Notes: generated by a model not told the origin, from the sequence alone. Positions 34,438 to 64,000 are shown, numbered from the stretch's first letter. The stretch: DNA of 64,000 nt from Acidobacteriota bacterium (GCA_016870995.1 VFZU01000010.1:1-64000); one strand, 5' to 3'. Translations and numbers: made by a program.

Positions 34438-34608
34438 TCAATCCATAAGAAAACTTTGAAGATCCAAACTATCCTTAAGTCAACTACCAGGCCTCTAAGG
34501 CAACTCGCCTTTCCTTAACGTCCCTGAACCTACACACCCACTTTCGTTATCATGAGATGTGGCGTGCATGCGTGCGATTTCGCGCTTCCACGCCCCAAAA
34601 GTACCTAC

Positions 34609-46698: not shown

Positions 46699-48639
46699 CT
46701 ACTTTTGCCTCATTCGCAACATCTCGAGCGCCCGCACGATTTCAATATCTCCCGGCTTACGTTCCCGCGACTTGCGCAACATCACTTCCGCTTGCGTCAG
46801 GTCACCGCTGCGTGCCAGCACTAGTCCGAGATTCTTTTCGAGATCAGCTTGCGCCCGGCACTCTCCGCACAACTCGATCGCTTCCCGCAGACGCTCCACG
46901 GCTCGCGGCCAATCATTCACAGCCGCCGCGCTCAGGCCGAAATTGCCAAGCGATTCAGCCTGCTCGGCCACCTGCCGCGACGCCGTCAATCCCGCCAGCC
47001 GAGCCCTGTATTCTGACGCCCGCTTCGCATCCACCTTCTGCAATTGCCGCGACAACGCGTACAGAGCCTCATGATGGTCCGCCCGTACCGTCAACAATTT
47101 CTCCCACGCCGCAATCGCTTCGGCAACACGGCCAAGCTGCACGCAAATTTGCCCCTTCAGAAACAACCCCTCTTGATGCATTGGCTCGCGTCGCAGCAAC
47201 TGCTCCGCAATGGCGAGCCCTTTCTCCGGCTGCTCAAGATTCCGGTGGCTCGCCGCCAGCAAATACCAACCATGCGCCAGCTTCTCGTCCGCTTTCACCG
47301 ACGCCTCGAGATGCGGCATGGCGGCCTCAAACTGTTTCTGGTCAAACAAAACCCGCCCCAGGTTGTATCTCGCTGCGGAACTCGCAGGAGCCAAAGCAAC
47401 CGCTTGATCAAAAGCCGCCCGCGCCCCCTCCAGGTCATACTGATCGGCCCGCGCGATTCCTAGATTTAAATGCGCCTCGGCCGACCCCGGCTCGATCTCC
47501 ACAACACGGGCAAACAGCGCCACTGCTTCTTTCCACTGGTTCAGCCGGCCCGCCACCATCGCCATCGCACTCAGCACGCGCGCCTGTCTCGGCATCAATC
47601 GATTCGCCTCGACCAGGTCCTTTTGCGCATCCCGGAATCGACCCTGGCTCGCCCGCATCAAGCCGAGGTTCAACCACGCTAGACCCGACTTCGGATCCAG
47701 TTCCGTAGCCCGGCGAAACTGTTGCTCGGCTTCCACAAAGCGGTTCATCTGGCCCAGCAGCACCCCATAATCGATGCGAGCTTCTGCAATGTCCCCGGCT
47801 TGCTTGAAGGCATTCTCCGCGCCAGTGCGATCCCCGCTTCGCAACCGTGCGAGCGCTAGCTGATACTGCGTCACGCCAGCAGCCGTATCGGTCGCCTGGC
47901 GCCGGCTCTCCTGCACCACACGCAACTCGGCGGCCGCCTTCTCTGGCTCTCCCAATTGTCGGTACGCCTGCGCCAATTGAAATCGCGTTTCCGCCACGGG
48001 ATTCAAATCACGCGATTTTTCAAGCACCCCTCGCGCCTCGGCTGCTTTGCCCTGCCGCAACAGAACGAAACCCAACTGGTAGTGCGCGTCCGCATGACGC
48101 GGTCCCACAAGAACTGCTTTTCTCAATTCGGTCTCTGCTTCCGCGTACCGTTCGAGCCCGCGCAGGGCAAGCCCCTTCAGGTAAGCGGGTTCCAGTGATT
48201 CCGGTCCGCGATACTGCCGCAACACCGCCAATCCGCTCTCGTAATCTTTCGCGGCTACCAAGGTCCGGCCAAGGGCGAGAATCGTGTCCTGCTGGCCGGG
48301 CTTCAATCGTAAGGATTCTCTATATGCCGCGGCAGCCTCGGCAAAACGGCCCACAAGCCCATAAGCGCGCCCCAGGCCTGTATGCACTGGCTCAGCTTGT
48401 GCGTTCAACGCGCGGCCCCGTTCTAGCACCGAAACAGCCTTCACCCCTTGCCCCATCTCCGTGTATACGAAGCCCAGCGCCAGATAATGCCCAAGCTCAT
48501 TCGGCTCAGCCGCGAGTGCCCGCTCAAGCAACGGCGCGGCCGCTGGGAATCTCTCTTCGAGAATCAGCTGCCGCGCCTGTTCGCGTAATTCAAGTGGAGT
48601 CTGGCCAAAAACCAGAAGCAGTACTGCCAGCTTCATCAA
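46699..48639 (-). CDS. Exported TPR-repeat protein
   Basis: A 646-residue protein with a signal-like start (MMKLAVLLLVFGQT) and then continuous tetratricopeptide repeats to the end. Consensus helix pairs are clear, for example AEPNELGHYLALGFVYTEMG, AEPVHTGLGRAYGLVGRFAE, PKSGLAWLNLGLMRASQGRF and PGSAEAHLNLGIARADQYDL; I estimate 14-16 repeats. TPR proteins scaffold complexes. The start overlaps the stop of the upstream TonB-receptor gene (TGATG), so both are made together. It may assist assembly or substrate handling at the outer membrane receptor; inferred from the overlap. Confidence 0.85.
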   Translation of the reverse strand: MMKLAVLLLVFGQTPLELREQARQLILEERFPAAAPLLERALAAEPNELGHYLALGFVYTEMGQGVKAVSVLERGRALNAQAEPVHTGLGRAYGLVGRFAEAAAAYRESLRLKPGQQDTILALGRTLVAAKDYESGLAVLRQYRGPESLEPAYLKGLALRGLERYAEAETELRKAVLVGPRHADAHYQLGFVLLRQGKAAEARGVLEKSRDLNPVAETRFQLAQAYRQLGEPEKAAAELRVVQESRRQATDTAAGVTQYQLALARLRSGDRTGAENAFKQAGDIAEARIDYGVLLGQMNRFVEAEQQFRRATELDPKSGLAWLNLGLMRASQGRFRDAQKDLVEANRLMPRQARVLSAMAMVAGRLNQWKEAVALFARVVEIEPGSAEAHLNLGIARADQYDLEGARAAFDQAVALAPASSAARYNLGRVLFDQKQFEAAMPHLEASVKADEKLAHGWYLLAASHRNLEQPEKGLAIAEQLLRREPMHQEGLFLKGQICVQLGRVAEAIAAWEKLLTVRADHHEALYALSRQLQKVDAKRASEYRARLAGLTASRQVAEQAESLGNFGLSAAAVNDWPRAVERLREAIELCGECRAQADLEKNLGLVLARSGDLTQAEVMLRKSRERKPGDIEIVRALEMLRMRQK

Positions 48640-51600
48640 AAGACGAATCTAGCACCCAACTGCAGCTGGCGTGGCTGGTTCGCCGTGCCGGTGACGAGGC
48701 CAAACAGCTGCGAGTTCGACAAATTGCCGTTGGGAGACGCATAGACCGGGTGGTTCAACATATTGAAGCCTTCAAACCGGAACTCAAGTCGCCGGCCTTC
48801 CCCGAGGAACTTCAAGGGGAATTCACGGAACAGCGAAATGTCAAAGTTCTCCCAGCCATCCGACCGCATACGGAAGCGTCCAGAGTTGCCGAAGGTGAAC
48901 GGAGTCGGCGACTCCACAAGCGAAGTATCGAACCAACGGCCAGTAGTCGGGTTCGACAACTTGGGATTGCCGAGGAAGTTCAACCGCAGGTAGTTGGAGT
49001 TGCCCGTATTCGCCAGGTCACCATTGATCTGCAGGTTATAGGGCTGGCCAGAGCTCAACCGCACAATCCCGTTCATGCGCCAACCACCGATCAGGTAATC
49101 GAGTGCATTGCCGGTCTGGAAAGACTTGCCGCGTCCGAAGGGCAGGTCGTAGACGAAGTTCATCGTCGCCACATGCGTCAGGTCGAAGCCCGACACACTG
49201 CGGTCATTGTTGAACGTATAGGGGTTCTGAACCGAGCAGCCTTCAACGCCATACCAGCCCGAGCAAGCGATGTCGATCGACTTCGAGTAGGTGTAGTTGA
49301 TCATGTACGCAAAACCGTTGCGGAACTTCTTGTCGAGCAGAACCTGCAGCGCGTGATAGTTGCCTCGGCCCCAGCTACGGTCATAGTAGGTCGGCCGGAT
49401 GTAGGGGAACGGAGCACGTTGGCGGAAGTTGCCCGGTCCTGGAGTGGTGGCGACGTTGTAGAAGCCGCCGATATCGAGACGGCGCGATCCGGAACCGACA
49501 TAGTTCACCGTCACGACGGTGTCGTTAGAAATCTGGTGCTGCACACCAAAGTTCCACTGCATCGAGTAAGGGTTGCGGAAGTTCGGGTCCATGTACCATT
49601 GCACCTGCTCGAAAGGCGTAGCCTGAGGCAGTGCTCCCGAGGGGAACGGATTCAATCCGCTGAAGCTTGGCGTCGGCTGTGCCGCTGTCGGGTTGTTGAG
49701 GTTTTCCTGCAGTTGCTCGCCCACACTCGGCCACTGCGCCGAATAGTTCTGAGCGGTCTGCACAACCGCGGCGTAGTTGTCGAAGAAGATACCGAACGAA
49801 GAGCGGATGGCGGTACGTTGGGCGAGCCGGTAGGCGAAGCCAATCCGCGGCTGCCAGTTATCGCTGGTGTTTCGGTATAGTTTCCCGTTCTGGGAAACTT
49901 CGACGTTCGCTGGCAGGCGGCCACCCGGAACGCAGGGCGCGCGGCGGAGTTCCTCGCACGAGCCAGGCTGCTTCTGGATAATGTAGACGCCACGCTGCAT
50001 GTCGTAGCCACCGGTGAAGATATTGTCGTTACCTTCCTGGCCGAGAGCAGGAATGAAGGTCTTGTCGTAGCGCAAACCAAGGTTAACGGTGAGGTTCTGA
50101 TTTACCTTCCACTGATCCTGGACGAAGAATGCCATATGGCCACCGCGGCGAACCGTAGTGGCACGGTTACGATAGCCGGCGGCATCTGGCACATTCAGCA
50201 GGAAGCTGGCCAACTGACTGCCGCTGTTACCAGGGCTGAGCGGATTCGACGTCTGCAGCGGGCGAAAAGTCGCACTCGCGTTGCGGGGCGAGCCGAAGAA
50301 GTCCATGTTGTTCCACTCGCCACCCATCTTGATCTGATGGCTGCCCTTGATTTTCGTGAGCGAAGCCTTGTACTGCCAGACGTCTGAAGGACGATTGAGG
50401 GACAGGGATTCGGCACCTGCAACCCAGCCGTCGATATTGAGCGCTGGCATGAGTGTTTGACCATCGAGGAAGCTGCAGCAGAACAGGTTGTTGTAACCAA
50501 CGTTGCGTGCGAAATCGGCCGGTAGGCTGCGGAAGCGGTTACCGTTGTTGTCTGTATTTACAAGACGGCCAAATTGGGCTTGCAACACGGTGGAGGGGCT
50601 AAAGGTGTGCACCCAGCTCGTGCCGACATTGAAGGCATTGAATTCACGGAAGCTCGCAAGAATCGGACGACCGCCGGACGCCGTCTGGTCGAGCATCGAA
50701 TGGCTAAAGCGGAAGAATACATTGTCCTTCGGGCCAATCACTCGATCCACGCGGAAGCTGTATTCCTCTTGGTTCTGACTGAAGGCAGAGGGGTCCAGCG
50801 CATTGCGGTCTGCGGTGATCGGAGCGCCGCCTGCTGGGAAAGTTGTACGCGCATAAAGCAGAGTGCCGGGGTTGATCCGGCTGGCCGGGATGATATTGCC
50901 GGCGAAGGGATCACGAATGAAGCCCACCCCGTTCGGGTTGGCTCGCGTTGTGGAGGGGTCGTAGATTTGCCGTGTTTCATCGCTCAGGTTGCCTCCAAGG
51001 TTTGCCGCAGTCGGCACGCGGAACAAAGCGTTGTTCGCGCGGCGGAAGCGCCAGCCCTGATAGCTGCCATGGAAGAACGTGTTGTTGCGGCCGTTCAGGA
51101 GTTTCGGGATCAACACCGGCCCGCCCACAGCAAAGCCAAACTGGTTCTGACGGAAGGGAGTAACCGCGGGAAGGAAGGTATTGCGAGCGTCAAATTCGCT
51201 GTTGCGCACATATTCCCAGGCCGAACCGTGCAACTGGTTTGTGCCGCTCATCGTTGCGACGTTCACAACACCGCCAAGCACACCACCAAACTCTGCCTGG
51301 TCGTTGTGGCTTTGAACCTTGAACTCGGCAATAGCGTCGACGATCGGATTAACCGCCGGCGTGGAGAGCATCAGGCCCTGGTTCGTGATGCCGTCCAGCG
51401 TCCAGAAATTGGAGCGGTTGGTCTGCCCGTTAATCGCCGGGAAGATAAAAGCGCCGATACCGGGGTGGGCGAAGCCGGAACCATTGTTCTGCGAAACGCT
51501 GACGGGTGCAACCCCTGGTGTCAAAGAAAGCAGCTGTGTGAAGTTGCGGCCATTCAACGGGAGGTCTACCACCTGTTGTCGCGCCACAACAGCACCGATT

Positions 51601-51992
51601 TCAGATGTGGAAGCCTGAACTTCCGCACCGATGGCCTCAACGTTGATCGACTGGTCCACCGAACCAATCTCCATCACGATATCGATCGTGGCAGTCTGAT
51701 TGACTGCGAGTGTGAACTGGCTCAATTTGTTCGTGCGAAAGCCAGCTTTTGTGACTTCAAGGGTGTACTGTCCAGGAATAATATTCAGAAAAGCGTAGTA
51801 ACCACTTTCATTGCTTGCCGTGCGCGCTTCCACCGACGTCGCGGTGTTGCGAATCACAAGATTCGCACCAGGAATCACGCTCCCGGAAGAATCCCTCAAG
51901 GTTCCGTTGATTGTGGCTGAGGAGGCCTGCGCATATATTGCCGATGCGCTAGCGAAACAGAGCGCAAGTGCGCATACAAGTGTTCGATTCAT
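48636..51992 (-). CDS. Oar-like TonB-dependent receptor
   Basis: An outer membrane protein of about 1118 residues. Order of parts: signal peptide (MNRTLVCALALCFASASAIY), carboxypeptidase-regulatory-like Ig domain (TINGTLRDSSGSVIPGANLV to about residue 105), plug domain (VVDLPLNGRNFTQLLSLTPG is the standard acidobacterial plug motif), then a long beta barrel. It ends in the aromatic LGARFVF. The ATG at 51992 is chosen because an AAGGAG site precedes it and the signal peptide begins there. Oar-type proteins are abundant in acidobacteria and take up large ligands with TonB energy. It is cotranscribed with the TPR protein and divergent from the cytochrome cassette, with 74 bases between starts. 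Confidence 0.92.
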   Translation of the reverse strand: MNRTLVCALALCFASASAIYAQASSATINGTLRDSSGSVIPGANLVIRNTATSVEARTASNESGYYAFLNIIPGQYTLEVTKAGFRTNKLSQFTLAVNQTATIDIVMEIGSVDQSINVEAIGAEVQASTSEIGAVVARQQVVDLPLNGRNFTQLLSLTPGVAPVSVSQNNGSGFAHPGIGAFIFPAINGQTNRSNFWTLDGITNQGLMLSTPAVNPIVDAIAEFKVQSHNDQAEFGGVLGGVVNVATMSGTNQLHGSAWEYVRNSEFDARNTFLPAVTPFRQNQFGFAVGGPVLIPKLLNGRNNTFFHGSYQGWRFRRANNALFRVPTAANLGGNLSDETRQIYDPSTTRANPNGVGFIRDPFAGNIIPASRINPGTLLYARTTFPAGGAPITADRNALDPSAFSQNQEEYSFRVDRVIGPKDNVFFRFSHSMLDQTASGGRPILASFREFNAFNVGTSWVHTFSPSTVLQAQFGRLVNTDNNGNRFRSLPADFARNVGYNNLFCCSFLDGQTLMPALNIDGWVAGAESLSLNRPSDVWQYKASLTKIKGSHQIKMGGEWNNMDFFGSPRNASATFRPLQTSNPLSPGNSGSQLASFLLNVPDAAGYRNRATTVRRGGHMAFFVQDQWKVNQNLTVNLGLRYDKTFIPALGQEGNDNIFTGGYDMQRGVYIIQKQPGSCEELRRAPCVPGGRLPANVEVSQNGKLYRNTSDNWQPRIGFAYRLAQRTAIRSSFGIFFDNYAAVVQTAQNYSAQWPSVGEQLQENLNNPTAAQPTPSFSGLNPFPSGALPQATPFEQVQWYMDPNFRNPYSMQWNFGVQHQISNDTVVTVNYVGSGSRRLDIGGFYNVATTPGPGNFRQRAPFPYIRPTYYDRSWGRGNYHALQVLLDKKFRNGFAYMINYTYSKSIDIACSGWYGVEGCSVQNPYTFNNDRSVSGFDLTHVATMNFVYDLPFGRGKSFQTGNALDYLIGGWRMNGIVRLSSGQPYNLQINGDLANTGNSNYLRLNFLGNPKLSNPTTGRWFDTSLVESPTPFTFGNSGRFRMRSDGWENFDISLFREFPLKFLGEGRRLEFRFEGFNMLNHPVYASPNGNLSNSQLFGLVTGTANQPRQLQLGARFVF

Positions 51993-52066
51993 AAAAACTT
52001 GACTCCTTCTGAATTCCGAATTGGCGAAATTATATCCCAAGCAAATATCGACTTCAAGGATAGAAT

Positions 52067-53425
52067 TTGAAATACTCTCTCTGGGTCATTGGCATGGAAT
52101 CGTTACTCTTTGCCCTGTATCTACTGGGTTATGACGCCATCACGGATCTGAAGTCGATCCGAGATTCGGCAGATGCGCTAACTCGCCGAAGTCGTGTAAA
52201 CGAGTTCTTGAAGCGGTATCCGGAATCAGAACACCGGGCTGCTGTGTATGAAGCGGGAGCGCTCGCCTGCTTTGAATTGAGCGACACGGCAACGGGGCTC
52301 TACATGGCGCGCCAGTCGCTGGAAGTCTATCCGGAGAACCCTCTACTCACGAGTACGATGGCTGCTGTCTTGCGAAATCGAGGCGACGAGAAAGGGGCTC
52401 GCGAGTATGCGTCGCTGGCGCGGCGATACCTCAACTTGTTCCGTCCCAAGCATTGGGAAGCTCTACGGCCCAGCATGGAGGCAACGATTGAGAAGATCCT
52501 TGGGCCCGCCCCACCCCGGCAAACCCCAGTCGCCGGGCAGTATGCCGGAACCGCATCATGCCGGGGTTGCCATAAGCTGGAGTTCGATGCGTGGGGGCAA
52601 ACGGGCATGGCGAAGATGTTTCGCCCTGAGAACTCAGCCAAGCGGGAATACGTTGAGATCGGATTACGCCGCTATCCCGTGGATGCGCGGATCGGTTCCA
52701 AGTGGCAGGAGGCTTACGCGACGAAAGCCCCCGATGGAAAGCTTCACGTACTGCCTCTGCAATTCAATAAGTTGCTCGGCAAATGGGTGAATTACTGGCG
52801 CATGATCGACCCGCCGCACTTGGACCGCGGCGACCCGAATCTGTTCCATCAATTCCGCGAGGTGACGGAGTATCAGACAAATTGTGCGCCTTGCCATACC
52901 AGCCAGTGGGGACCTAAGGAATCGAAAGAGCCGGGGATCAATTGCGAAATGTGTCATGGGCCGGGCCTGGAGCATAGCCGCGGCAAACCGCTGCGAAAGC
53001 TGAGCGCGGAAGAATCGGTGGCAGTCTGCGCCCAGTGTCATGCGCAATCGGCGATAAGAACGATCCGTGCGGAGTTTCCCCCGCGCTATGAGCGCCGCCC
53101 GTACACAGACTTCGCACAGAACACATTTCATCCTAACGGCCGCTTCAAAGAGACGACTTTTCTCGTGGAAGCCTTTGAACGCAGCGCATGTTACCGAAAG
53201 GGAAATGCAACTTGCGCCTCCTGCCATGACCCGCACCCTAAGAACGGCAAGGTAAATCAGAAGGGACTGAAGTACGCCATCGACGATGACGCGATGTGCA
53301 CACAGTGCCACAAACAGAAGCACGATGAAAGCGCGCGCTGTGTGGAATGCCACATGCCGAAGACCATGAACGCCCTGCTGTTTGTCGCGAGAACGCACCA
53401 GATCGAGAAGCGGCCCTTGAAGTAA
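52067..53425 (+). CDS. Heptaheme cytochrome c with TPR-like N-terminus
   Basis: A 452-residue protein, likely membrane-anchored by the hydrophobic start (VIGMESLLFALYLLGYD). Residues about 30-140 look like TPR helices (EHRAAVYEAGALACFELSDT, ENPLLTSTMAAVLRNRGDEK). Seven CxxCH heme sites follow, from CRGCH near residue 165: CAPCH, CEMCH (in the NCEMCHGPG string), CAQCH, CASCH, CTQCH and CVECH near residue 425. ASCHDPH and VECHMPK are typical of multiheme cytochromes of the c554/NrfA-like group. Start is TTG with AAGGA ahead; ATG 52094 is an alternative. It opens the plus-strand cassette and sits 27 bases from the PSD1 gene. Confidence 0.85.
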   Translation: MKYSLWVIGMESLLFALYLLGYDAITDLKSIRDSADALTRRSRVNEFLKRYPESEHRAAVYEAGALACFELSDTATGLYMARQSLEVYPENPLLTSTMAAVLRNRGDEKGAREYASLARRYLNLFRPKHWEALRPSMEATIEKILGPAPPRQTPVAGQYAGTASCRGCHKLEFDAWGQTGMAKMFRPENSAKREYVEIGLRRYPVDARIGSKWQEAYATKAPDGKLHVLPLQFNKLLGKWVNYWRMIDPPHLDRGDPNLFHQFREVTEYQTNCAPCHTSQWGPKESKEPGINCEMCHGPGLEHSRGKPLRKLSAEESVAVCAQCHAQSAIRTIRAEFPPRYERRPYTDFAQNTFHPNGRFKETTFLVEAFERSACYRKGNATCASCHDPHPKNGKVNQKGLKYAIDDDAMCTQCHKQKHDESARCVECHMPKTMNALLFVARTHQIEKRPLK

Positions 53426-53452
53426 AAACAACAATGTGATAATTACTGCTTC

Positions 53453-55795
53453 ATGATTGCTGGGTTAATAGTGGCAACGCTGCTGTTCGGGCAGGACGCG
53501 CAAGAGATTCTCTCGCGAAACTGCCTCGCTTGCCACGGTGCAGCGCGGATGGGCAATGTGGATCTGCGAACGCTGAAGAGCGGCGATCCCCTCCTGAGCA
53601 AAGTGGCACACATGGTTACCAGCAAGGCCATGCCGCCCGGCAAGAAGGGTTTAAGCGAGTCAGAGATCAGCACGATCTCCGCATGGGTCAAGGCAGGCGC
53701 ACCAGGACTCGACAAGCCGCTCGAAGTCAAAAGCAACTGGTGGTCGTTTCAACCGTTAAAGCGGCCAGCTTTGCCGGTTGGTGTTGGAAACCCGGTTGAT
53801 CTGTTTGTGCGAGAGAAGTGGAAACAGGCCGGGCTGAAGCCCGTGCGCCCCGCGACAAAGCGCGAGTTGTTGCGCAGGGTGAGCTTCGCGCTCTCGGGCT
53901 TACCACCGACGGAAAAAGAGCTGGCCGAGTTCGAGCAGGACCGCCGGCCGGACGCATACGCAAGGCAGGTGGACCGCTTGCTGGCAAGCCCACAATACGG
54001 AGAACGATGGGGAAGGCATTGGCTCGATGTCGTGCGGTATGCGGACACGGGAGGATTTGAGACAGACATCTACTTCCCCAATGCGTGGCGCTATCGGGAT
54101 TATGTGATCCGGAGCCTGAATCAGGACAAATCCTACAAGCAGTTTGTGCAAGAGCAAATTGCGGGCGACGAACTGTTCCCGACGGACCTCGATCTCGATG
54201 GCGGATTCCAGATTGCGCCCCAAAAACTTTCAAGACTGGACGCAAGCATTGCAACAGGGCTATACACGATTGGCCCCGTCTACCATGAGGCTGCCCTGTT
54301 TGGCGGGCAGGTGCGCTACGAGTGGCTCACCGATGCGGTCGACACAACGGGGGAAGCGTTTCTGGGTTTAACGCTCGGCTGCTCCCGCTGCCACAACCAT
54401 AAATTTGATCCGCTCACGCAAAAGGACTATCACGCGATGATGGCCGTGTTTGCGGCAAGCGAGGAAAAAGAGATCCCGGTGGTAAGCCGGTTTGCCACGT
54501 TCGGATTCAAGTCGGGGTATCCGAGCTGGATCCGGGTGGAGGAGTTGAAGGGCGCCATACAAAGGATTGACCAGGGGGCGAGGAAGCGGGTTGTCGATTC
54601 GATGCGCAAGCGATTCAGCGCCCAGGAGCTGGCCGCCTATGACACGCCGGTGGAGAAGCGAACACTGGAACAGCGCAACACCGCAGCCCGCGTGGAGGCG
54701 GCGATGACGCAGGCGGGGCTGCAGGAAAACGCAGAAGGCAAGCAAGCCGACATTCCGCTGACCGAAGCGGAGAGCAAAGAGCGAGAACGCCTGGTTGTGG
54801 AACTGGGCCGGGCGACGCTCAAGGCGAACCCCGTGCCGCAAACAGCAACCGTCTTGGGAGCCGCGCCTGTCACGCCGAAGGTGTACCTGACGCACCGCGG
54901 AGACTGGCGCAGCAAGGGCGAAGAAGTCGGCCCTGGCGTACCTGCTGTGCTGTCAAGGGGAGTCCAGATGGATGCGGCCAGCGCGAGGCGCTCGGCCTTG
55001 GCCAAGTGGATCGGCAGCGAAGAGAATCCGCTCACGGCGCGCGTGATGGTGAACCGCGTCTGGCACTGGCACTTCGGCAAGGGAATCGTCGCGAGTCCAA
55101 ACGACTTCGGCCGGCAGGGCGAAGAACCGACGCACCCGCAACTGCTGGACTGGCTGGCGGCCGAGTTTATGGAATCGGGCTGGAGCCTGAAGAAACTGCA
55201 CCGCACGATTCTGCTGTCTGAGACCTACCAGTTGAGCAGCGAAGCGAACGAAGCCAATTTGAAGATCGACGCCAACAACCGCTACTTGTGGCGGATGAAC
55301 CGGCAGCGGCTAGATGCCGAAACATTACGGGACGCCGTACTCGCCGTGAGTGGGGAGCTGAACTTGAAAATGGGCGGTCGGCCGGTGGTATCGAAACTGA
55401 GCCCGGAAGAGTACACGGTGATGTGGGCGCGCAACCAGTGGCCCGAGTCGCTCGATGAACGCGAGCAGGCTCGGCGAAGCGTTTACCTCTATGTGAAACG
55501 CACCTTTCCCCTGCCCATGTTCACAACCTTCGATGCGCCTGACACATCCCAAAGTTGCTCACGGCGGGAGAATACAACCGTCGCGCCGCAGGCATTGACG
55601 CTTATGAACGGCGAGTTCATGGTGCGTGAAGCGAACAAGTTGGCGGCCAAGGCCGGAGACGCAGAAGGGTTGTGGCGGAGGGTCTTCGGTCGCGCGCCCA
55701 CGGCAGCGGAGCGGGAGCAGGCGGGGCGCCTGAAGGACCTCGAACAGATGGCGCTGGTATTGCTAAACACGAACGAGTTTCTCTATGTGGACTGA
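53453..55795 (+). CDS. PSD1/planctomycete cytochrome C-domain protein
   Basis: A 780-residue exported protein. After the signal sequence there is a heme site (CLACHG, about residue 24) in a planctomycete-type cytochrome domain, with MTSKAMPPGKKGLSESEI-like spacing after it. The DUF1549 region contains LLASPQYGERWGRHWLDVVR and YADTGGFE; then the DUF1553 region carries NPLTARVMVNRVWHWHFGKG, PSPNDFG-like IVASPNDFGRQGEEPTHPQL and LDWLAAEFMESGWSLKKLHR. This architecture is widespread in planctomycetes and some acidobacteria, always with a DUF1501 partner, and its chemistry is undefined. It overlaps or nearly touches the DUF1501 gene. Confidence 0.92.
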   Translation: MIAGLIVATLLFGQDAQEILSRNCLACHGAARMGNVDLRTLKSGDPLLSKVAHMVTSKAMPPGKKGLSESEISTISAWVKAGAPGLDKPLEVKSNWWSFQPLKRPALPVGVGNPVDLFVREKWKQAGLKPVRPATKRELLRRVSFALSGLPPTEKELAEFEQDRRPDAYARQVDRLLASPQYGERWGRHWLDVVRYADTGGFETDIYFPNAWRYRDYVIRSLNQDKSYKQFVQEQIAGDELFPTDLDLDGGFQIAPQKLSRLDASIATGLYTIGPVYHEAALFGGQVRYEWLTDAVDTTGEAFLGLTLGCSRCHNHKFDPLTQKDYHAMMAVFAASEEKEIPVVSRFATFGFKSGYPSWIRVEELKGAIQRIDQGARKRVVDSMRKRFSAQELAAYDTPVEKRTLEQRNTAARVEAAMTQAGLQENAEGKQADIPLTEAESKERERLVVELGRATLKANPVPQTATVLGAAPVTPKVYLTHRGDWRSKGEEVGPGVPAVLSRGVQMDAASARRSALAKWIGSEENPLTARVMVNRVWHWHFGKGIVASPNDFGRQGEEPTHPQLLDWLAAEFMESGWSLKKLHRTILLSETYQLSSEANEANLKIDANNRYLWRMNRQRLDAETLRDAVLAVSGELNLKMGGRPVVSKLSPEEYTVMWARNQWPESLDEREQARRSVYLYVKRTFPLPMFTTFDAPDTSQSCSRRENTTVAPQALTLMNGEFMVREANKLAAKAGDAEGLWRRVFGRAPTAAEREQAGRLKDLEQMALVLLNTNEFLYVD

Positions 55796-55808
55796 TTGCC
55801 CGAAATCG

Positions 55809-57221
55809 ATGGCGGCGCACTCGCGCCGGGACTTTCTGACGCGAAGTGCGCTGGGCTTCGGTGCGCTGGCGGCGAACGCTATGGCAAACCCCTATGCCAG
55901 GCGCAGCCCTCACTTTGCGGCCAAAGGCAAGAGCGTGATCTTCCTGTTCATGCATGGAGGGCCAAGCCACTTGGACACGTTTGACCCAAAGCCGGAACTG
56001 CAGCGGCTCGACGGGCAACCGATCCCGAAGAGCTTTGGCAAGGTCGACTTCCAGTTCTCGAATATGGAAAAGACGCCGCTCATGGGCTCACCGCGCAAGT
56101 TCAAGAAGCGAGGGCAGTCAGGGCTCGAGATCTCAGACCTGTTTGAGCATACGGCGGCGCACGCCGATGACCTATCGGTGATCCGGTCCTGCCATCATGA
56201 CGGCTTCACCCACGTGACGGGGCAAACATGGATGAACACCGGTTGGGGGCGTGTGGGGCGGCCGAGCGTGGGCTCGTGGGTCGTATACGGACTCGGGAAC
56301 GAAAGTGAGAATCTACCTGCTTATGTGGTGATGCTCGACGGAGGTATCAAGGCGGGTGCCCCCGCTTATGGAGCTGGATTTCTACCAGCGGCCTATCAGG
56401 GAACAGTGCTGCGCAGCGAAGGGCCACCAATCCTGAACATCAAACGGCCGGAGGGAATCTCGGGCAAAGAGCAGGAAACCATGCTGTCGGTATTGCGCGA
56501 CATGAATGAAGCGCACCGGGCTCCGCGGGCCGACGATACAGAACTGGCGGCAAGGATGGCGAGCTATGAGTTGGCGTTCAAGATGCAGATGTCAGTACCC
56601 GAGGTAACGGCTCTCGAACGCGAGACTGAGGCAACCAAAAAACTCTACGGCCTCGACGACCCGATGACGGCGGAGTTCGGTACGCAGTGCCTGATGGCGC
56701 GCCGCATGGTGGAGAAGGGCGTGCGCTTTGTGCAACTGTATTCTGGCGGAAAGAAGGGTGCCGAGGTGGGCTGGGATGGACACAACGAGTGTGACCAGAA
56801 CCACGAGTTTATGGCCCGCAAGGTGGACAAACCGATTGCCGGGTTGCTGGCAGACCTGAAGTCGCGCGGCCTGCTTGAGAGCACTGTCGTGTTCTGGGGC
56901 GGAGATTTTGGCAGAACGCCATTTACCGATGGCGCCGAGGGCGGCAGCGGCAACCGCAACGGGCGCGACCACAACCCTTATGGCTTCACGGTATGGCTGG
57001 CGGGCGGAGGTGTGAAGGGCGGTCAGGTCATCGGCTCCACGGATGAGATCGGCCTCAAGGCGCAGGAGGACAAGGTGGACATGCATGACCTGCATGCCGG
57101 GCTCTTGGGGCTGCTGGGGCTCGACCACAAGAAGCTGACCTATCCTTTCCAGGGCAGAGAATTCCGGCTGACGGATGTCGGGGGAGAAGGCAATCTGCTA
57201 AAACGATTGAGGAATGGATAA
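55809..57221 (+). CDS. DUF1501 protein with Tat signal
   Basis: A 470-residue protein whose N-terminus (MAAHSRRDFLTRSALGFGAL) is a Tat signal, so it is folded and cofactor-loaded before export. The body contains SVIFLFMHGGPSHLDTFDPK, FGTQCLMARRMVEKGVRFVQ, WDGHNECDQNHEFMARKVDK, STVVFWGGDFGRTPFTDG and RDHNPYGFTVWLAGGGVKGG. These are the DUF1501 strings, related to the alkaline-phosphatase/sulfatase fold, with Asp/His metal ligands. The role with the PSD1 partner is unknown. GTG 55785 would be 24 bases earlier and overlap the PSD1 stop; I prefer ATG 55809. The end overlaps the next start by eight bases. Confidence 0.9.
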   Translation: MAAHSRRDFLTRSALGFGALAANAMANPYARRSPHFAAKGKSVIFLFMHGGPSHLDTFDPKPELQRLDGQPIPKSFGKVDFQFSNMEKTPLMGSPRKFKKRGQSGLEISDLFEHTAAHADDLSVIRSCHHDGFTHVTGQTWMNTGWGRVGRPSVGSWVVYGLGNESENLPAYVVMLDGGIKAGAPAYGAGFLPAAYQGTVLRSEGPPILNIKRPEGISGKEQETMLSVLRDMNEAHRAPRADDTELAARMASYELAFKMQMSVPEVTALERETEATKKLYGLDDPMTAEFGTQCLMARRMVEKGVRFVQLYSGGKKGAEVGWDGHNECDQNHEFMARKVDKPIAGLLADLKSRGLLESTVVFWGGDFGRTPFTDGAEGGSGNRNGRDHNPYGFTVWLAGGGVKGGQVIGSTDEIGLKAQEDKVDMHDLHAGLLGLLGLDHKKLTYPFQGREFRLTDVGGEGNLLKRLRNG

Positions 57222-58962
57222 AACATCCAGGCGGAGTTGGTTGAGCCTGTTGGGCGCGTCATGGGCGGCGAAGGCGCAAGGCGTATCGTCACGCGTGGCG
57301 CGGCCGCAGCAACGCGGGAAGCCTTCCGGATTGCCGTTTCACTCAAAGCTGACCGATATCGCCAAACAGGCGGGTTTGCTCGAGCGTTGCACCTATGGTG
57401 GAGAAACCGCCAAGCAGTATCTGCTCGAGACGATCGGTTGTGGCGTAGCGTTTGTTGACTACGACAACGACGGATGGCTGGATATTTTCCTGCTCAACGG
57501 CACTCTGCTCGAAGGATCGAACGCGACAAACCGCTTGTACCGCAACAACCGGGATGGCACCTTCACAGACGTCACCAAAGCCTCGGGGCTGGAGCGAACC
57601 GGGTGGGCTTCGGCGGTCTGCGCCGGAGATTACAACAACGACGGATGGACGGACCTGTTTGTGACCTACTGGGGTCAGAACGTGCTGTACCGCAACAATG
57701 GCAACGGAACCTTCAGCGATGTCACCAAGCAGGCGGGCCTGATCGAGGCAAAGCGGCGCTGGGGTGCAGGCTGTACATTTGTTGACTATGACCGTGACGG
57801 GCATCTCGATCTTTTTGTCTCGAACTACGTCGACTTCGACCCGGAGAAGGTGCCAAAACCAGGGCAAAACTCTTTCTGCAACTGGAAGGGAGTACCGGTA
57901 AATTGCGGTCCGCGGGGGCTGACCCCCGGCTACCATTCGCTCTACCGGAATCGAGGTGATGGAACGTTTGAAGACGTGAGCGCAAAGTCTGGTGTGGCGA
58001 AGGCGCGTGGCAGCTATGGGATGACGGCGGTGGCGGCGGACTTCGACAACGACGGCTGGCCGGACATCTACGTCGCTTGCGACTCAACGTCGAGCTTTCT
58101 GTTCCGCAACAAGCATGACGGTACGTTTGAAGAGGTGGGGCTTGAGCGCGGCGTGGCCGTGAATGAAGACGGGATGGAGCAGGCGGGCATGGGAGTGGGC
58201 GTCGGAGACTTTGACCTCGACGGGAACCTCGATATCTTCAAGACGCACTTTGCGGACGATTCGAACATTCTGTACCGCAATGACGGCAAGGCGAACTTCG
58301 AGGACGTGACGACACGCAGCGGAGTTGGCGTCGAGACCCGCTATGTGAGTTGGGGCGCGGGCATTGTGGACCTCGACAACGACGGGCAACTAGATCTGTT
58401 TTTCGTGACTGGCAATGTCTACCCGGAGATTGAAGCGAAGCTGCCCGCCTACCCGTTCAAGACCCCGCGCGCAGTGTTTCGCAATCTGGGAGGCGGCAAG
58501 TTCGAAGAGTTGTTGGATCAGGCCGGGCTAGGAGTGAGCGAGGCGCACTCAAGCCGCGGCTGTGCGTTCGGGGACTTCGATAACGATGGCGACATAGATG
58601 TCGTGGTAGTGAATCTCCATGAGCCGCCAAGCCTTTTGCGCAACGATGTCACCAGCAACGGGAACTGGTTGAAGGTCAAGCTCGAAGGAGTGAAATCGAA
58701 CCGCAGCGCGATTGGGGCCCGAGTGACGTTGCTCTATGGAGGAAAGAAACAGGCACAGGAGGTGATGAGCCAGGGGAGTTTTTATTCCGTCAATGACTTC
58801 CGGCTGCACTTTGGTCTCGGGGCGGTGGACATCGTCGACATAGAGGTGCGTTGGCCCAACGGCGGGCTTGCCCGGTTTCCCAAGGTAGCGGCGGGACAAC
58901 TGATCGAGATCAAAGAGGGTGCGGGAATCGTAAAGGCGACGCCTTGGAAGAAGAAGGGCTAA
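57214..58962 (+). CDS. CRTAC1-like FG-GAP propeller with ASPIC/UnbV domain
   Basis: A 582-residue protein with a short Tat- or Sec-like start (TSRRSWLSLLGASWAAKAQG). Seven calcium-loop repeats of the FG-GAP/VCBS propeller are visible: DYDNDGWLDIF, DYNNDGWTDLF, DYDRDGHLDLF, DFDNDGWPDIY, DFDLDGNLDIF, DLDNDGQLDLF and DFDNDGDIDVV. The C-terminus, with NWLKVKLEGVKSNRSAIGAR and VEIEVRWPNGG-like IVDIEVRWPNGGLARFP, is the ASPIC/UnbV domain. Such proteins are surface-exposed in planctomycetes and acidobacteria. The start overlaps DUF1501 by eight bases; the second cytochrome follows after three bases. Confidence 0.93.
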   Translation: MDKTSRRSWLSLLGASWAAKAQGVSSRVARPQQRGKPSGLPFHSKLTDIAKQAGLLERCTYGGETAKQYLLETIGCGVAFVDYDNDGWLDIFLLNGTLLEGSNATNRLYRNNRDGTFTDVTKASGLERTGWASAVCAGDYNNDGWTDLFVTYWGQNVLYRNNGNGTFSDVTKQAGLIEAKRRWGAGCTFVDYDRDGHLDLFVSNYVDFDPEKVPKPGQNSFCNWKGVPVNCGPRGLTPGYHSLYRNRGDGTFEDVSAKSGVAKARGSYGMTAVAADFDNDGWPDIYVACDSTSSFLFRNKHDGTFEEVGLERGVAVNEDGMEQAGMGVGVGDFDLDGNLDIFKTHFADDSNILYRNDGKANFEDVTTRSGVGVETRYVSWGAGIVDLDNDGQLDLFFVTGNVYPEIEAKLPAYPFKTPRAVFRNLGGGKFEELLDQAGLGVSEAHSSRGCAFGDFDNDGDIDVVVVNLHEPPSLLRNDVTSNGNWLKVKLEGVKSNRSAIGARVTLLYGGKKQAQEVMSQGSFYSVNDFRLHFGLGAVDIVDIEVRWPNGGLARFPKVAAGQLIEIKEGAGIVKATPWKKKG

Positions 58963-58965
58963 GCG

Positions 58966-60507
58966 ATGTTGTATGCACTGATGGTAATGAGCTTGGTTGG
59001 GCAAGAGTACGTGGGCTCGACCGCTTGTGCGCCCTGCCATCGCGCCATCAGTGAACACTGGAAAAAGACGGCCATGGGGCGCAGCATGAGCCCCGCGGCA
59101 GAGCACCTTGGCAAAGTAGCCAGCGTGGTTGTGGTGGGCGCGGAAAAACTCAGGCGCGAGTTTCGCGTCGAGGTCGAGAACGGACTGATGAAGCAGGAGG
59201 AAGCCGGCGAGGGCTTTCGCAATGAACATATCGTGCGTTGGGCAATTGGGTCGGGTGTAAACGGCCACAGCTTTGTGGTGGAGCGTGGCGACCATCTCTT
59301 TCAGGCGCCGCTTTCCTTTTACTCGCGCGTGGGCCAATGGGGGCTGTCCCCTGGGTATGAGTTTGCGGACTATGGCTTCAACCGGCCGATCGCCGCAGGC
59401 TGCATCCACTGCCACAGCGGACACCCGCGCACGGTGGCGAACACAAGCGGAAAGTATGAGTCGCCTGCCTTTGCCGAGTTGGCGATTGGCTGTGAAAGCT
59501 GCCATGGGCCGGGACGGAAGCACGTGACGGCGCGCGGGGCCAAAGGCAGCATCGTGAACCCGAAGAAGCTGGAGCGGGAAAGGGCCGACGAGATTTGCAT
59601 GCGCTGCCACCAGGGTGGCGATGCGCGCGTGCTGATGCCCGGCAAGACTGAGGGAGATTTCCGCCCCGGGCAGGCGCTGGCCGAGACAGTCGCGATCTTC
59701 CGGCTACCAAGGCAGAAGGATACAGATCTCTTGGAGCATCACGAATCGATGCGCTTGAGCGAGTGTTACCAGCGGAGCGGGACGATGACCTGCCAGAGTT
59801 GTCACAACCCGCATGAAGTGAAGACCGACCACCGGGCGAAATGCTTGAGCTGTCACACCGGCAGTCTGGGCGAAAGGCACCCGGCTCGAGATAGCGATTG
59901 CCTGAGCTGCCACATGCCGAAGCGGGAAGTGGGTGTGATTGCCCACTCCGCGCTGACGAACCACCGGATACCGCGGCGGCCTGATGCGAAGGTGGCACTT
60001 GAGACCGGCGAAGAACTCGTCGCTATCAACCAACCGCGAAAGCCATGGGGGGCGCTGATCGAGATGCAGGCTTACGGGATCGTGGCCGAGAAGGGTCCGC
60101 AATGGATGCGGAAGTTTGAAGAGCGCCTTCTCGAGGCAGCGAAGGAGAAGCCCGAAGAAGCAGTGGTGCTGGCGACGCTGGGAAGACGGTCACTGCGGGA
60201 GAAAAACTACCCGCAAGCGATCGGGCAATTACAGCAAGCCCTACAGCGCGGTTGGAAAGTAGCGACCACTTATGAAGACTTGGGCGAAGCGCTAGGACGG
60301 GCAGGCCAGGGAGAGCGGGCTATTGCCACCTTGCGCGAAGGGATCGCGGTGGCACCCTTTCATCCGGTCTTGTACAAGTCGCTGGCGTTGCGACTGATCC
60401 AGGCGCAGCGGTTTGCGGAAGCAAAGGAGACGCTCACCAAATACGTCGAGCTTTTCCCGGAGGATGATTTCGTCAGGCGACTTCTGAAGCAGGTATCAGG
60501 GGGATAG
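58966..60507 (+). CDS. Heptaheme cytochrome c with C-terminal TPR
   Basis: A 513-residue protein. Seven CxxCH sites lie in the first 330 residues: CAPCH, CIHCH, CESCH (in GCESCHGPG), CMRCH, CQSCH, CLSCH and CLSCH. From about residue 375 TPR helices follow (KPEEAVVLATLGRRSLREKN, ATTYEDLGEALGRAGQGERA). The N-terminus (MLYALMVMSLVGQEYVGSTA) is a very short signal-like stretch. It is clearly related to the cytochrome gene on the other strand, sharing LSFYSRVGQWGLSPGYEF-type and SECYQRSG-type segments. Start is three bases after the CRTAC1 stop. The last 12 bases overlap that convergent gene. Confidence 0.9.
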   Translation: MLYALMVMSLVGQEYVGSTACAPCHRAISEHWKKTAMGRSMSPAAEHLGKVASVVVVGAEKLRREFRVEVENGLMKQEEAGEGFRNEHIVRWAIGSGVNGHSFVVERGDHLFQAPLSFYSRVGQWGLSPGYEFADYGFNRPIAAGCIHCHSGHPRTVANTSGKYESPAFAELAIGCESCHGPGRKHVTARGAKGSIVNPKKLERERADEICMRCHQGGDARVLMPGKTEGDFRPGQALAETVAIFRLPRQKDTDLLEHHESMRLSECYQRSGTMTCQSCHNPHEVKTDHRAKCLSCHTGSLGERHPARDSDCLSCHMPKREVGVIAHSALTNHRIPRRPDAKVALETGEELVAINQPRKPWGALIEMQAYGIVAEKGPQWMRKFEERLLEAAKEKPEEAVVLATLGRRSLREKNYPQAIGQLQQALQRGWKVATTYEDLGEALGRAGQGERAIATLREGIAVAPFHPVLYKSLALRLIQAQRFAEAKETLTKYVELFPEDDFVRRLLKQVSGG

Positions 60508-61908
60508 CAGCGCTTCGCGAGCAAGAAGATTCTGCGGAGCGAGTTGCAGCAGACGCTCAAGAATTGTGCGACGCTGCGCGGGTTGGCACTCGGTTAGCAA
60601 GAAGTATGCGCGCGGAGAAAGCGGCTCCAGAGAAATCGCTTTTTCCAGTTGTGCGATCGCCGAACCAGTATCGCCAAGGCTGCGTTCCACCACGGCGAGC
60701 TTTTCCCGCAACGGGGCATCGTTCGGACGGAGGGCAACAGCGGAGCGCAGGAGCTTGCGCGCGTCCACCTTTTGATCTTTCAGAAAGAGAACCATGCCGA
60801 GTGCGGTGAGTACTTCAGGGTCGCGCTCAAGCCGGTTGATGAGACCAGCAAGGCGGCGGTAGCCGCTTTGAATCATTTCCGGAGAGTTATCCCGCTCGCC
60901 AATTTCAATCGAGGCAAGGCCAAGCGCCCGCTCCCGCTCCAAGGGAGTGCCCGCGTCTCGCCACACGCGGAGTTGGACTGTCGTGTTGCTAGCCGCTTGC
61001 GGGCGCGACTGGATGCGGTGATCGGTGAACGCGGAGTGGCCTCCGTCAGAAGCGGGTCGGCGGGGCATGTGGCACGAAGTACATTCGGCGGGGGCGGCAG
61101 GATGGGCCGAAGAGAGCGTGGCGTGGCAAGAGCGGCAGGTGGATGTGATGTTCACTGGCTCGCCGTGCACAGAATGACAAGAGCCGCACCAGAGCTTACC
61201 GGAAGATTGACGCGAGCATTCGCTAAGGCTGAGCTGTTCGACATGGCTTACGACCCGGAGATCCTGGCGAGGACGGTCATAGACGATGGTGAGAGCGCCG
61301 ATACGGGTTTCGCCAGTCAGGTGGCAACGCTCGCACACGACTTCGCGCGCTGCGGTCGTGAGCCGGACGGGATTGGAGATGTTCGCACGCGAGGGCCGTG
61401 CGAGGTGAGCGGCCGAGTTGCCATGACACTGGTCGCAAGAGATGGGTTGAGGGTCGGCGGCGTTGCCGTTAGAGTGGCAATCGAGGCATTGTGCCGTCAC
61501 GCGGCGATCAAAGTCGAGGCGGGGGTGGCGTTCGTAGCCAGGCGCAACGGCCCAGACCTGCTTGTCACGATACAAAGCCGCCGGGGATTGAAAGAGAGTG
61601 TTGCCGACACGCACGAGGAAGCCCGCGGCGTGAGACCCCGAGCCGATGCGGTAAGCGATGGGGTATTCGGCGGAGATCTTGCCACGCTCGATGCGGTGCC
61701 ACAGGCGGCCGTCGCGCGCAAACGACTGCACGATGGAACCAGAGGCGGCATGAACAAAGGACCCAGCGGGCAAAACAGAGGCGGGTGCGATGGCATTACC
61801 CATCGGAGTGAGACCAAAGGCCTTGACTTGCGCAGGATGGCAAGATTGGCAAGGGTGGGCCGCAAGGAGCGGGAGAGCGGCGAAGATAAAGCAGGCGCTC
61901 CAAATCAT
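60496..61908 (-). CDS. Heptaheme cytochrome c with C-terminal TPR (paralog)
   Basis: About 470 residues. Signal peptide MIWSACFIFAALPLLAA, then seven heme sites: CQSCH, CLDCH, CDQCH, CERCH, CGSCH, CRSCH and CTSCH, then TPR helices (PEVLTALGMVLFLKDQKVDA, APLREKLAVVERSLGDTGSA). It aligns in order with the cytochrome on the plus strand next to it: LFQSPAALYRDKQVWAVAPG here against LFQAPLSFYSRVGQWGLSPG there, and LSECSRQSSGKLWCGSCH against LSECYQRSGTMTCQSCH. The two are paralogs placed tail to tail. The ATG at 61908 is preferred over the longer ORF. The gene is divergent from alpha-L-fucosidase. Confidence 0.9.
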   Translation of the reverse strand: MIWSACFIFAALPLLAAHPCQSCHPAQVKAFGLTPMGNAIAPASVLPAGSFVHAASGSIVQSFARDGRLWHRIERGKISAEYPIAYRIGSGSHAAGFLVRVGNTLFQSPAALYRDKQVWAVAPGYERHPRLDFDRRVTAQCLDCHSNGNAADPQPISCDQCHGNSAAHLARPSRANISNPVRLTTAAREVVCERCHLTGETRIGALTIVYDRPRQDLRVVSHVEQLSLSECSRQSSGKLWCGSCHSVHGEPVNITSTCRSCHATLSSAHPAAPAECTSCHMPRRPASDGGHSAFTDHRIQSRPQAASNTTVQLRVWRDAGTPLERERALGLASIEIGERDNSPEMIQSGYRRLAGLINRLERDPEVLTALGMVLFLKDQKVDARKLLRSAVALRPNDAPLREKLAVVERSLGDTGSAIAQLEKAISLEPLSPRAYFLLTECQPAQRRTILERLLQLAPQNLLAREALLSP

Positions 61909-61947
61909 GCCATGACAATCATATCTGTTTGTGATAGACACTCAAGC

Positions 61948-63363
61948 ATGCGAAGACGAGAATTCCTTTCCGTGGTGCCCTCAGGCATGGCGATGGCACA
62001 GTTTGGCGAGATGGGCCCGCCGGCGAAATACGAGGCAAACTTGGATTCGCTCAAGCGTCACCCGCTGCCGAAATGGTTTGGGGATGCGAAGCTGGGCATC
62101 TTCATCCACTGGGGTTTGTATTCCGTGCCGGCTTGGGCGCAGCCGAGCGGGGAGTTGGGCAAGGTCGACTGGTCGAAGTGGTTTTACCAGAATCCCTACG
62201 CGGAATGGTATTTGAATTCGATCCGACTCAAGGAGTCTTTGGCCTACGCGCATCATGCGAAGACCTATGGGGCCGACTATGACTACTACCGGTTCGCCGA
62301 GACCTTCACTAAGGAGAGCCAACGGTGGAACCCGGAGGAATGGGCCGGGCTGTTCAAGGATGTGGGGGCGCGTTATGTGGTGCTGACGACGAAGCACCAC
62401 GACGGGTTTACCTTGTGGCCATCGAAGGTGAAGAATCCCGTCAAGGCGGACCTGCCGACGATCGGCAGGGACCTCGTCGGGGAATTGACCGGAGCGGTGC
62501 GTAAGGCGGGGATGAAGATGGGGCTCTACTATTCAGGGGGCCTCGACTGGACGTTTGAAGCCCGGCCAGTGCGGACGATGATGGATGTGCGCACCACCGT
62601 CGTGCAGACGCAACAGTATGCCGACTATGCCGATGCGCACTGGTATGAGTTGATGGACCGCTATCAGCCGGCCGTGTTGTGGAACGACATCGGCTATCCA
62701 CGTGCGGGCAAGATCGAGAAAATCTTTGCCGACTTCTACAACCGAGACAAAGAGGGTCTCATCAACAACCGCTTCGGGCGGGACCACTTTGACTTCACGA
62801 CGCCCGAGTACTCCCGCTACGACACGATCGTCGAGAAGAAATGGGAGTCCTGCCGCGGACTCGGCTTCAGCTTCGGCTACAACCAGATTGAGGGGCCAGA
62901 ACACGTTTTGGCAAGCGACAAGCTGGTCGAGCTGTTTGTCGACATTGTCAGCAAGAACGGAAACCTGTTGCTCAACATCGGACCAAAACCGGACGGAAGT
63001 ATCAGTGCGATTCAGCAGGACCGGCTCAAGGCGCTCGGAGGTTGGTTGAAGGTGCACGGGGAAGGCTTGTTTGATTCAAAGCCCTGGATCCGTGCGGCGG
63101 CGCGCGAGACGGATGCCGACGTGCGCTTCACGCGCAAAGGCGATGCCGTCTTTGCGTATCTGCTGAAGCAGACAACGGGCAACGAGTTGCGCGTGCCGCG
63201 CGTGATGGCCGCGGAGGGCACGAAGGTAACCAAGCTCGGCGAGGCAGGGACGCTCGAGTGGCATCAGGCTGGTCCGGACCTCATCGTGAAGACGCAACAC
63301 CGGGGATCGCTGGCGGGAGCGCTGAAGATCACCCCGGCACCCTATCAACTAGTCCGGGACTAA
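61948..63363 (+). CDS. Alpha-L-fucosidase, GH29
   Basis: A 471-residue exported enzyme. The N-terminus MRRREFLSVVPSGMAMAQ is a Tat-type signal. The GH29 core starts with PKWFGDAKLGIFIHWGLYSV and PAWAQP, continues WAGLFKDVGARYVVLTTKHH followed by DGFTLWPSKV, and has the nucleophile segment VLWNDIGYP at about residue 242. LLLNIGPKPDGSI near the end is also typical. It removes alpha-linked fucose from glycans. The ORF track extends 1.3 kb upstream through the cytochrome region; that part is a shadow, and ATG 61948 gives the signal peptide. The sulfatase gene follows after 56 bases. Confidence 0.93.
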   Translation: MRRREFLSVVPSGMAMAQFGEMGPPAKYEANLDSLKRHPLPKWFGDAKLGIFIHWGLYSVPAWAQPSGELGKVDWSKWFYQNPYAEWYLNSIRLKESLAYAHHAKTYGADYDYYRFAETFTKESQRWNPEEWAGLFKDVGARYVVLTTKHHDGFTLWPSKVKNPVKADLPTIGRDLVGELTGAVRKAGMKMGLYYSGGLDWTFEARPVRTMMDVRTTVVQTQQYADYADAHWYELMDRYQPAVLWNDIGYPRAGKIEKIFADFYNRDKEGLINNRFGRDHFDFTTPEYSRYDTIVEKKWESCRGLGFSFGYNQIEGPEHVLASDKLVELFVDIVSKNGNLLLNIGPKPDGSISAIQQDRLKALGGWLKVHGEGLFDSKPWIRAAARETDADVRFTRKGDAVFAYLLKQTTGNELRVPRVMAAEGTKVTKLGEAGTLEWHQAGPDLIVKTQHRGSLAGALKITPAPYQLVRD

Positions 63364-63419: not shown

Positions 63420-64000
63420 ATGAAGCAGAATCGTGGTTTGGCGAGACGACAGTTCCTGGCAACGCTGTCGGCGTTGACCCTCCCCTTTCAGGCACAGGCA
63501 GCAAGGCCGAAGAACCGCCCCAACATCGTCGTCATCCTTGCCGATGACTTGGGCTATGGAGATGTGGGTGCGTACAACTCTGATTCGCGGATCCCAACCC
63601 CGAACATGGATCGGCTGGCCCGCGAAGGCGTGCGCTTCGTCGACGCCCACACACCCTGTGGCGTCTGCTCGCCGACACGCTTTGGCCTGTTGACCGGTTG
63701 TTATCCCTGGCGCACGGAGCTGAAGTCGCAGGTGCTTTGGCCTTGGGACAAACCTCTCATCGACGAAAAGCGTTTGACGATGGGCAAAATGTTGCAGAGC
63801 ATGGGCTACGCAACTGCGGCATTCGGCAAGTGGCACCTCGGTTGGGATTGGGCGACCACCGACGGATCGAAGGTGAATGATCAGGTGCGCATCGGCGATC
63901 CTCAGCGCGAAATCCGCAACGCCTTCGCCCCAAAGGTGCAGTTCGACAAGCCCATTAAGTCGGGCCCAACCAGCCGCGGCTTCGATCATTACTTTGGTGT
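63420..64000 (+). CDS. Arylsulfatase, N-terminal part
   Basis: Missed by the ORF track because it runs off the window end. The first 193 codons show a Tat- or Sec-type signal (ARRQFLATLSALTLPFQAQA), then RPNIVVILADDLGYGDVGAY with the metal-binding Asp pair, and TPCGVCSPTRFGLLTG, where C-x-P-x-R is the sulfatase signature whose Cys (residue 83) is converted to formylglycine. LDRL-type PTPNMDRLAREGVRF and TAAFGKWHLG-like ATAAFGKWHLGW support this. The enzyme removes sulfate esters. It follows the alpha-L-fucosidase on the same strand, suggesting attack on sulfated fucose-containing glycans. Confidence 0.92.
   Translation, partial: MKQNRGLARRQFLATLSALTLPFQAQAARPKNRPNIVVILADDLGYGDVGAYNSDSRIPTPNMDRLAREGVRFVDAHTPCGVCSPTRFGLLTGCYPWRTELKSQVLWPWDKPLIDEKRLTMGKMLQSMGYATAAFGKWHLGWDWATTDGSKVNDQVRIGDPQREIRNAFAPKVQFDKPIKSGPTSRGFDHYFG

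Follow-up and report, generated by a model that had tools for sequence, protein, structure and literature searches.

A co-inherited envelope cassette of an Oar-type receptor, a TPR protein and multiheme cytochromes in Bryobacterales, possibly devoted to fucose-containing glycans

Some Planctomycetes, Verrucomicrobia and Acidobacteria are rich in proteins of the PSD1 and DUF1501 families and in TPR-bearing multiheme cytochromes, and to our knowledge no substrate has been assigned to either group. PSCyt genes have been described beside sulfatases in Verrucomicrobia (PMC5615132), and CRTAC1 genes lie beside multiheme genes in clusters of hydrazine-synthase (HZS) homologues, including one of Paludibaculum fermentans (PMC12758564). 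A locus that shares features with these arrangements, and also with SusCD-type polysaccharide utilisation loci (PULs) and Mtr/OcwA-type electron conduits, is found in a stretch of 64,000 nucleotides from an Acidobacteriota bacterium (GCA_016870995.1 VFZU01000010.1:1-64000; hereafter the window). The source is a soil-type acidobacterium of the order Bryobacterales, whose genome (G000) comprises 5.72 Mb in 215 contigs; the comparison covered 150 genomes of the order and 80 neighbourhoods of one cytochrome family, named HEPa. The locus encodes a cassette formed by an Oar-type transporter, a TPR partner, the multiheme cytochromes HEPa, HEPb and HEPc and, usually, a CRTAC1 propeller. This cassette is real and conserved, and it is previously undescribed in the open literature searched, where no description of it was found.

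Like in SusCD-type PULs, an outer-membrane barrel receptor is encoded with a partner gene, a fucosidase and a sulfatase adjoin the cassette in the window, and genes for a sugar-acid dehydratase, a permease and an SDR protein are present in some relatives. However, the receptor barrel is of the Oar type (PF25183, E=8.5e-206 in Pfam), a TPR protein takes the place of SusD, and three multiheme cytochromes are added, as is a CRTAC1 propeller. Pfam gave no match to a Plug domain in the receptor, whose TonB dependence is putative. The likeness to Mtr/OcwA-type conduits lies in the multiheme c-type cytochromes (three times seven CxxCH), predicted to be exported; no MtrB-like porin family was matched by Pfam in the cassette, no obvious lipobox was seen, and the only barrel is the Oar-type one. 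OcwA itself (6i5b; PMC6703420), a protein of mixed heme coordination, shows limited sequence similarity to part of the HEPa heme domain, whereas the three HEP proteins have TPR domains, a beta-rich insert, 7-8 hemes and GH29/sulfatase neighbours. The PSCyt2-PSD1/DUF1501 pairs of Planctomycetes and Verrucomicrobia (PMC5615132) display the same domain architecture as the pair in the window, but here one pair is inside a multiheme-Oar operon and most of those in the genome are free-standing. With the HZS homologue clusters (PMC12758564) the locus has in common the position of CRTAC1 beside c554-type multiheme genes, also in Bryobacterales; it differs in carrying a receptor operon instead of an HZS homologue, and neither HZS alpha nor HZS beta-gamma was detected when the cassette proteins were scanned with Pfam and NCBIfam.

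The evidence that carries the cassette is its gene order and its inheritance. The full order, TPR-Oar, then divergently HEPa-PSD1-DUF1501-CRTAC1-HEPb and the convergent HEPc, recurs across genera (L147/L167, L148/L169, L151/L171, L155/L172, L176 and L177), L147/L167 being Bryobacter sp. CoA8 C33, of the same genus as the source. In L148/L169 Oar and HEPa are separated by two additional small ORFs and one of 1142 aa, and the cassettes of L168, L173 and L174 end at contig ends. Overlaps are kept in several genomes, with 1-4 nt for Oar/TPR, 8 nt for DUF1501/CRTAC1 and 12-15 nt for the convergent HEPb/HEPc. Full HEPa orthologues are carried by 12 relatives, and precisely these have an Oar orthologue (78-93% identity), the next-best Oar being 58% identical; the sampled congeners G018 and G049 are devoid of both. 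The two genes share a contig in 10 of the 12 and lie on separate contigs in the fragmented assemblies G070 and G105. Oar is also the most conserved member, with 79-93% identity across genera, while HEPa goes down to 50-57% in the same comparisons and the TPR protein orthologues of cassette loci range from 46 to 79%. A surface receptor is not usually so conserved, and an unchanging ligand or partner may be the reason. The genome itself contains 65-66 Oar-like PF25183 barrels and 12 UnbV_ASPIC genes, and the Oar orthologues score 2046-2425 bits against at most 388 for paralogues in the genome of the window. Since the order recurs in other genera and the orthologues of the components far outscore the paralogues in that genome, the association is better than chance. 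The earlier claim of one exported system including the receptor is therefore sustained for the core, in which synteny and co-inheritance link the receptor with the TPR protein and the cytochromes, and has to be abandoned for PSD1-DUF1501 as a central element: in the neighbourhood comparison that had been suggested as a test, relatives keep PSD1-DUF1501 apart, but not the receptor and the cytochromes. As separate observations, the Oar gene of L174 (6400-9764) is broken into two ORFs (8919-9764 and 6400-8856), perhaps by a frameshift or through faulty assembly, and about 10-30 kb past the window (G000 C10:74.7-95 kb; L062, L063) two Oar genes are accompanied by several CRTAC1/UnbV and TPR genes, without a heptaheme gene.

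The seven genes that the initial annotation placed in two divergent, tightly packed groups are all present (Table 1), and several details had to be revised. HEPc, which is convergent with HEPb and overlaps it by 12 nt, had been overlooked, and PSD1 had been credited with one heme motif; it contains two CxxCH, at residues 24-28 and 310-314, and the alignment shows both to be conserved, so that the former count of 14 hemes plus one becomes 23 motifs (3x7 + 2). Gaps given as -8 to 27 bases extend in the actual ORFs from -11 (PSD1/DUF1501) to +27, and the start of the TPR gene overlaps the end of the Oar gene. With starts picked by homology (likely ATG at 51992 for Oar and 52094 for HEPa), the divergent spacer measures about 100 bp and not 26; it was viewed by eye and no operator is claimed in it.

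The phylogeny of the pair, by Pfam a PSCyt2 + PSD1 protein with a DUF1501 protein encoded next after it, indicates how it came to the locus. The genome has 43 DUF1501 genes and about 38 PSD1-DUF1501 pairs, and that of the window is alone in adjoining CRTAC1 and heptaheme genes. In G057, G094 and G105 HEPa is directly followed by CRTAC1 and HEPb, and an 83% identical DUF1501 with its PSD1 is located on a different contig; G124, G056 and G133 combine a stand-alone pair (77%) with a cassette that lacks it; and G097 has the pair (86%) and no full HEPa orthologue. In the tree of DUF1501 as in that of PSD1, stand-alone pairs make up a grade, and within it the copies from cassettes, together with that of G097, are united in a supported group. 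PSD1-bearing cassettes of the window kind constitute one clade of the HEPa tree (support 99). The simplest history is that an old free-standing pair entered the operon once and was then kept, and that G097 later lost the cassette around it in a single event, unless the pair moved out. The stand-alone orthologous pairs, present in nine or more of the Bryobacterales genomes, together with the location of the other pairs of the genome away from heptaheme and CRTAC1 genes, also fit with the idea that only the Oar-TPR-HEPa-HEPb-HEPc(-CRTAC1) core is functional and that the pair is independent, sharing its promoter by happenstance in one lineage. This alternative is rather unlikely, given that all six complete cassettes of the clade have the pair at one and the same place inside the operon, as do the truncated ones so far as they extend, across PSD1 identities of 69-85% and with reading frames that overlap their neighbours in several; decay would be expected of a neutral co-location.

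Regarding the proteins of the pair, an AlphaFold model of PSD1 built from 10 sequences reached a mean pLDDT of 42, and no fold was inferred. DUF1501 matched among solved structures lipoteichoic acid synthase 2, weakly (E=0.007), with insignificant matches to sulfatases; on general grounds, and with this weak support, it may be a metal hydrolase with an alkaline-phosphatase fold. Elsewhere in the genome, the two PSD1-less DUF1501 genes (C43 and C47 of G000; L112, L114) each lie directly 3' of a DUF1800 gene, and each DUF1501 examined in this genome seems to be partnered by PSD1 or DUF1800. A relationship between PSD1 and DUF1800 found no support in hhalign (probability of 0.1%, with only 2 DUF1800 rows).

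The three cytochromes are, judging from their sequences, homologous to one another: HEPb shares 32% identity with HEPc, and the profile of HEPa can be aligned with that of HEPb/c at 99.9% probability. All of them present an N-terminal heme motif, an insert with an 'IGSG/IGSK' motif and then six heme motifs. In the AlphaFold model of HEPa, of moderate quality (pLDDT 73), the N-terminus is helical and TPR-like, and the insert, between hemes 1 and 2, is beta-rich. Most HEPa relatives carry 8 CxxCH, the C-terminal eighth motif being absent from the clade of the window (with L167-L170), and the genome holds only a handful of HEPb-like (P0007-like) cytochromes. The conserved non-motif histidines of HEPb/HEPc (186, 258, 283, 305, 327 and 333) plus Met37, for seven hemes, make six bis-His hemes and one of His-Met or open coordination probable. 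In HEPa only three non-motif histidines are invariant for 7-8 hemes, and therefore several of these would be coordinated otherwise; Met181 and Met184 are also invariant, and mixed coordination is expected as in OcwA (PMC6703420). The N-termini, read by eye, appear to be of the Sec type in the cytochromes, the TPR protein and PSD1, and of the twin-arginine type in DUF1501, CRTAC1 and GH29.

The only functional hint comes from the GH29 and sulfatase genes that adjoin the cassette in the window, which were absent from the initial annotation. The GH29 gene is one of only 3 in the genome (5.7 Mb) and its product contains LWNDIGYP, which we take to resemble the GH29 nucleophile motif; the sulfatase bears a CxPxR-type motif, CSPTR. 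Among the HEPa-family loci a GH29 gene is found within 10 kb in 20 of 80 and a sulfatase in 14 of 80. This amounts to about 25 GH29 genes per Mb near HEPa against about 0.5 per Mb in 21 relatives (61 genes in about 123 Mb), an enrichment of about 50-fold that is approximate, the lineages being non-independent and the baseline genomes a different set. GH29 is kept beside the cassette in Bryobacter CoA8 (L167), a GH29-RhaT-MR_MLE-SDR-solute-binding-protein cluster abuts HEPa-CRTAC1-HEPb-TPR-Oar in L224, and MR_MLE-GH29-GH29 abuts HEPb-HEPa-CRTAC1 in L191. Amidohydrolase_2, MR_MLE, SDR and RhaT are families of the oxidative L-fucose/L-rhamnose route, and the fucose-catabolism-type genes near some HEPa-family loci are known by family, not as individual enzymes. 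In a separate clade, an octaheme HEPa homologue has a sulfatase gene immediately upstream, with a 4-nt overlap in most loci (L206, L208, L212, L213, L215, L219, L223, L226, L228 and L244).

The best reading of these data would be a TonB-receptor locus for the utilisation of a glycan, probably a fucoside, together with an exported multiheme module. The cassette is a co-inherited envelope system of Bryobacterales and other Acidobacteria; that it serves a fucose-containing and possibly sulfated glycan by the mechanism proposed here, the most likely reading, is given about an even chance. We infer its redox chemistry, electron direction and substrate as follows. GH29 and the sulfatase would strip fucose and sulfate, and the Oar receptor would take in the oligosaccharide. 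CRTAC1 and the TPR domains may tether substrate and cytochromes, either periplasmically or at the outer membrane. The glycan or its sugars would undergo an oxidative step, and the hemes would hand the electrons released on to the respiratory chain. The cytochromes might also form a redox chain with PSD1 that feeds the receptor or is fed by it, and di-heme PSD1 and DUF1501, possibly a metal hydrolase, would add one extra processing step in the lineage that recruited them. The whole would be an exported electron-transfer, possibly catalytic, assembly tied to glycan processing and Oar-mediated uptake. A stricter version, with a dedicated multiheme assembly docked to Oar and CRTAC1 for the oxidative processing of fucosylated or sulfated glycans in the envelope, electrons going to respiration and PSD1-DUF1501 able to plug in, is tentative and, taken as a whole, unlikely.

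Several observations weigh against the glycan reading. There is some relatedness among the GH29-positive loci, and consequently the enrichment represents fewer independent events than loci. Among full-cassette loci GH29 is linked in only the window and L167, which limits the fucoside inference within the cassette clade; the cassette genomes G089, G032 and G020 have no linked GH29, and the GH29 of G061 has no adjoining sulfatase. The SusD family is absent from the cassette proteins by Pfam, the partner being the TPR protein, and the genome gives weak evidence that CRTAC1 genes lie near Oar genes (P=0.017 by gene, 0.12 by cluster). A Foldseek search of the PDB with the HEPa model returned matches to the TPR part only, and among solved structures HEPa comes closest to respiratory enzymes (OcwA).

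A rival explanation sees in the cytochromes a reductase, extracellular or terminal, for metals, humics or soluble oxyanions, with Oar as, or near, the conduit and GH29 incidental. The best PDB matches of the HEPa profile are 6i5b (526 aa), 6qvm (multiheme cytochrome cf), MccA and cytochrome c554, and an Fe(III) reducer with numerous multiheme cytochromes belongs to the order (PMC8407742). However, the match to 6i5b (60 bits) takes in about 155 positions of the profile and no more than a portion of the heme domain; no porin-cytochrome conduit was identified in the cassette, whose barrel is Oar-type; lipoprotein signals are not obvious by eye; and GH29, sulfatase and fucose-catabolism-type genes recur near the HEPa family. 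A reductase appears unlikely. Finally, a ligand-sensing or signalling unit, with Oar and CRTAC1 as adhesin or receptor, cytochromes reporting the redox state and GH29 as a bystander, is highly improbable, for FG-GAP/CRTAC1 propellers and TPR proteins are indeed binding modules and a Ser/Thr kinase gene adjoins the TPR gene in the window, but Bryobacter CoA8 has a DUF1552 gene instead of the kinase and 21-23 heme motifs would be costly for a sensor.

Elsewhere in the window, a Fic/DOC family protein is encoded at 33236-34405, and a 1272-aa ORF at 34552-38370 fuses a 2-oxoacid dehydrogenase acyltransferase domain to E1/transketolase parts of 2-oxoglutarate dehydrogenase.

Table 1. Features of the cassette and its neighbours, in window coordinates.
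Feature	Position	Strand	Basis or remark
TPR protein, second gene of the Oar operon, 646 aa by longest ORF	46699..48636	-	Pfam TPR
Oar-like outer-membrane receptor	48636..51992	-	PF25183 barrel + CarboxypepD_reg (Pfam)
Divergent intergenic region common to both operons	51993..52093	.	between likely ATG starts
HEPa, TPR-like helical N-terminus + 7 CxxCH	52094..53425	+	ORF, homology-picked start, model
PSCyt2-PSD1 protein, two CxxCH, recruited, optional member	53453..55795	+	Pfam
DUF1501 protein, twin-arginine-type N-terminus, recruited along with PSD1	55785..57221	+	Pfam
CRTAC1-type propeller, FG-GAP + UnbV_ASPIC, twin-arginine-type N-terminus	57214..58962	+	Pfam
HEPb, 7 CxxCH + C-terminal TPR	58966..60507	+	Pfam
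HEPc, 7 CxxCH + C-terminal TPR	60496..61908 (ORF 60496-61941)	-	Pfam, HEPb homology
GH29 alpha-L-fucosidase	61948..63363	+	divergent from HEPc by ~40 bp
S1-type sulfatase, CSPTR motif	63420..64000, on to ~64964 of contig	+	56 nt past GH29

If the stricter version is true, the cassette would constitute a redox-coupled version of the polysaccharide utilisation locus. The lineage that has recruited the pair and has fucosidase and sulfatase neighbours offers a concrete class of substrates that can be tested, along with definite partners, and if the glycan reading holds, glycan uptake in these soil bacteria would be coupled to exported electron transfer.

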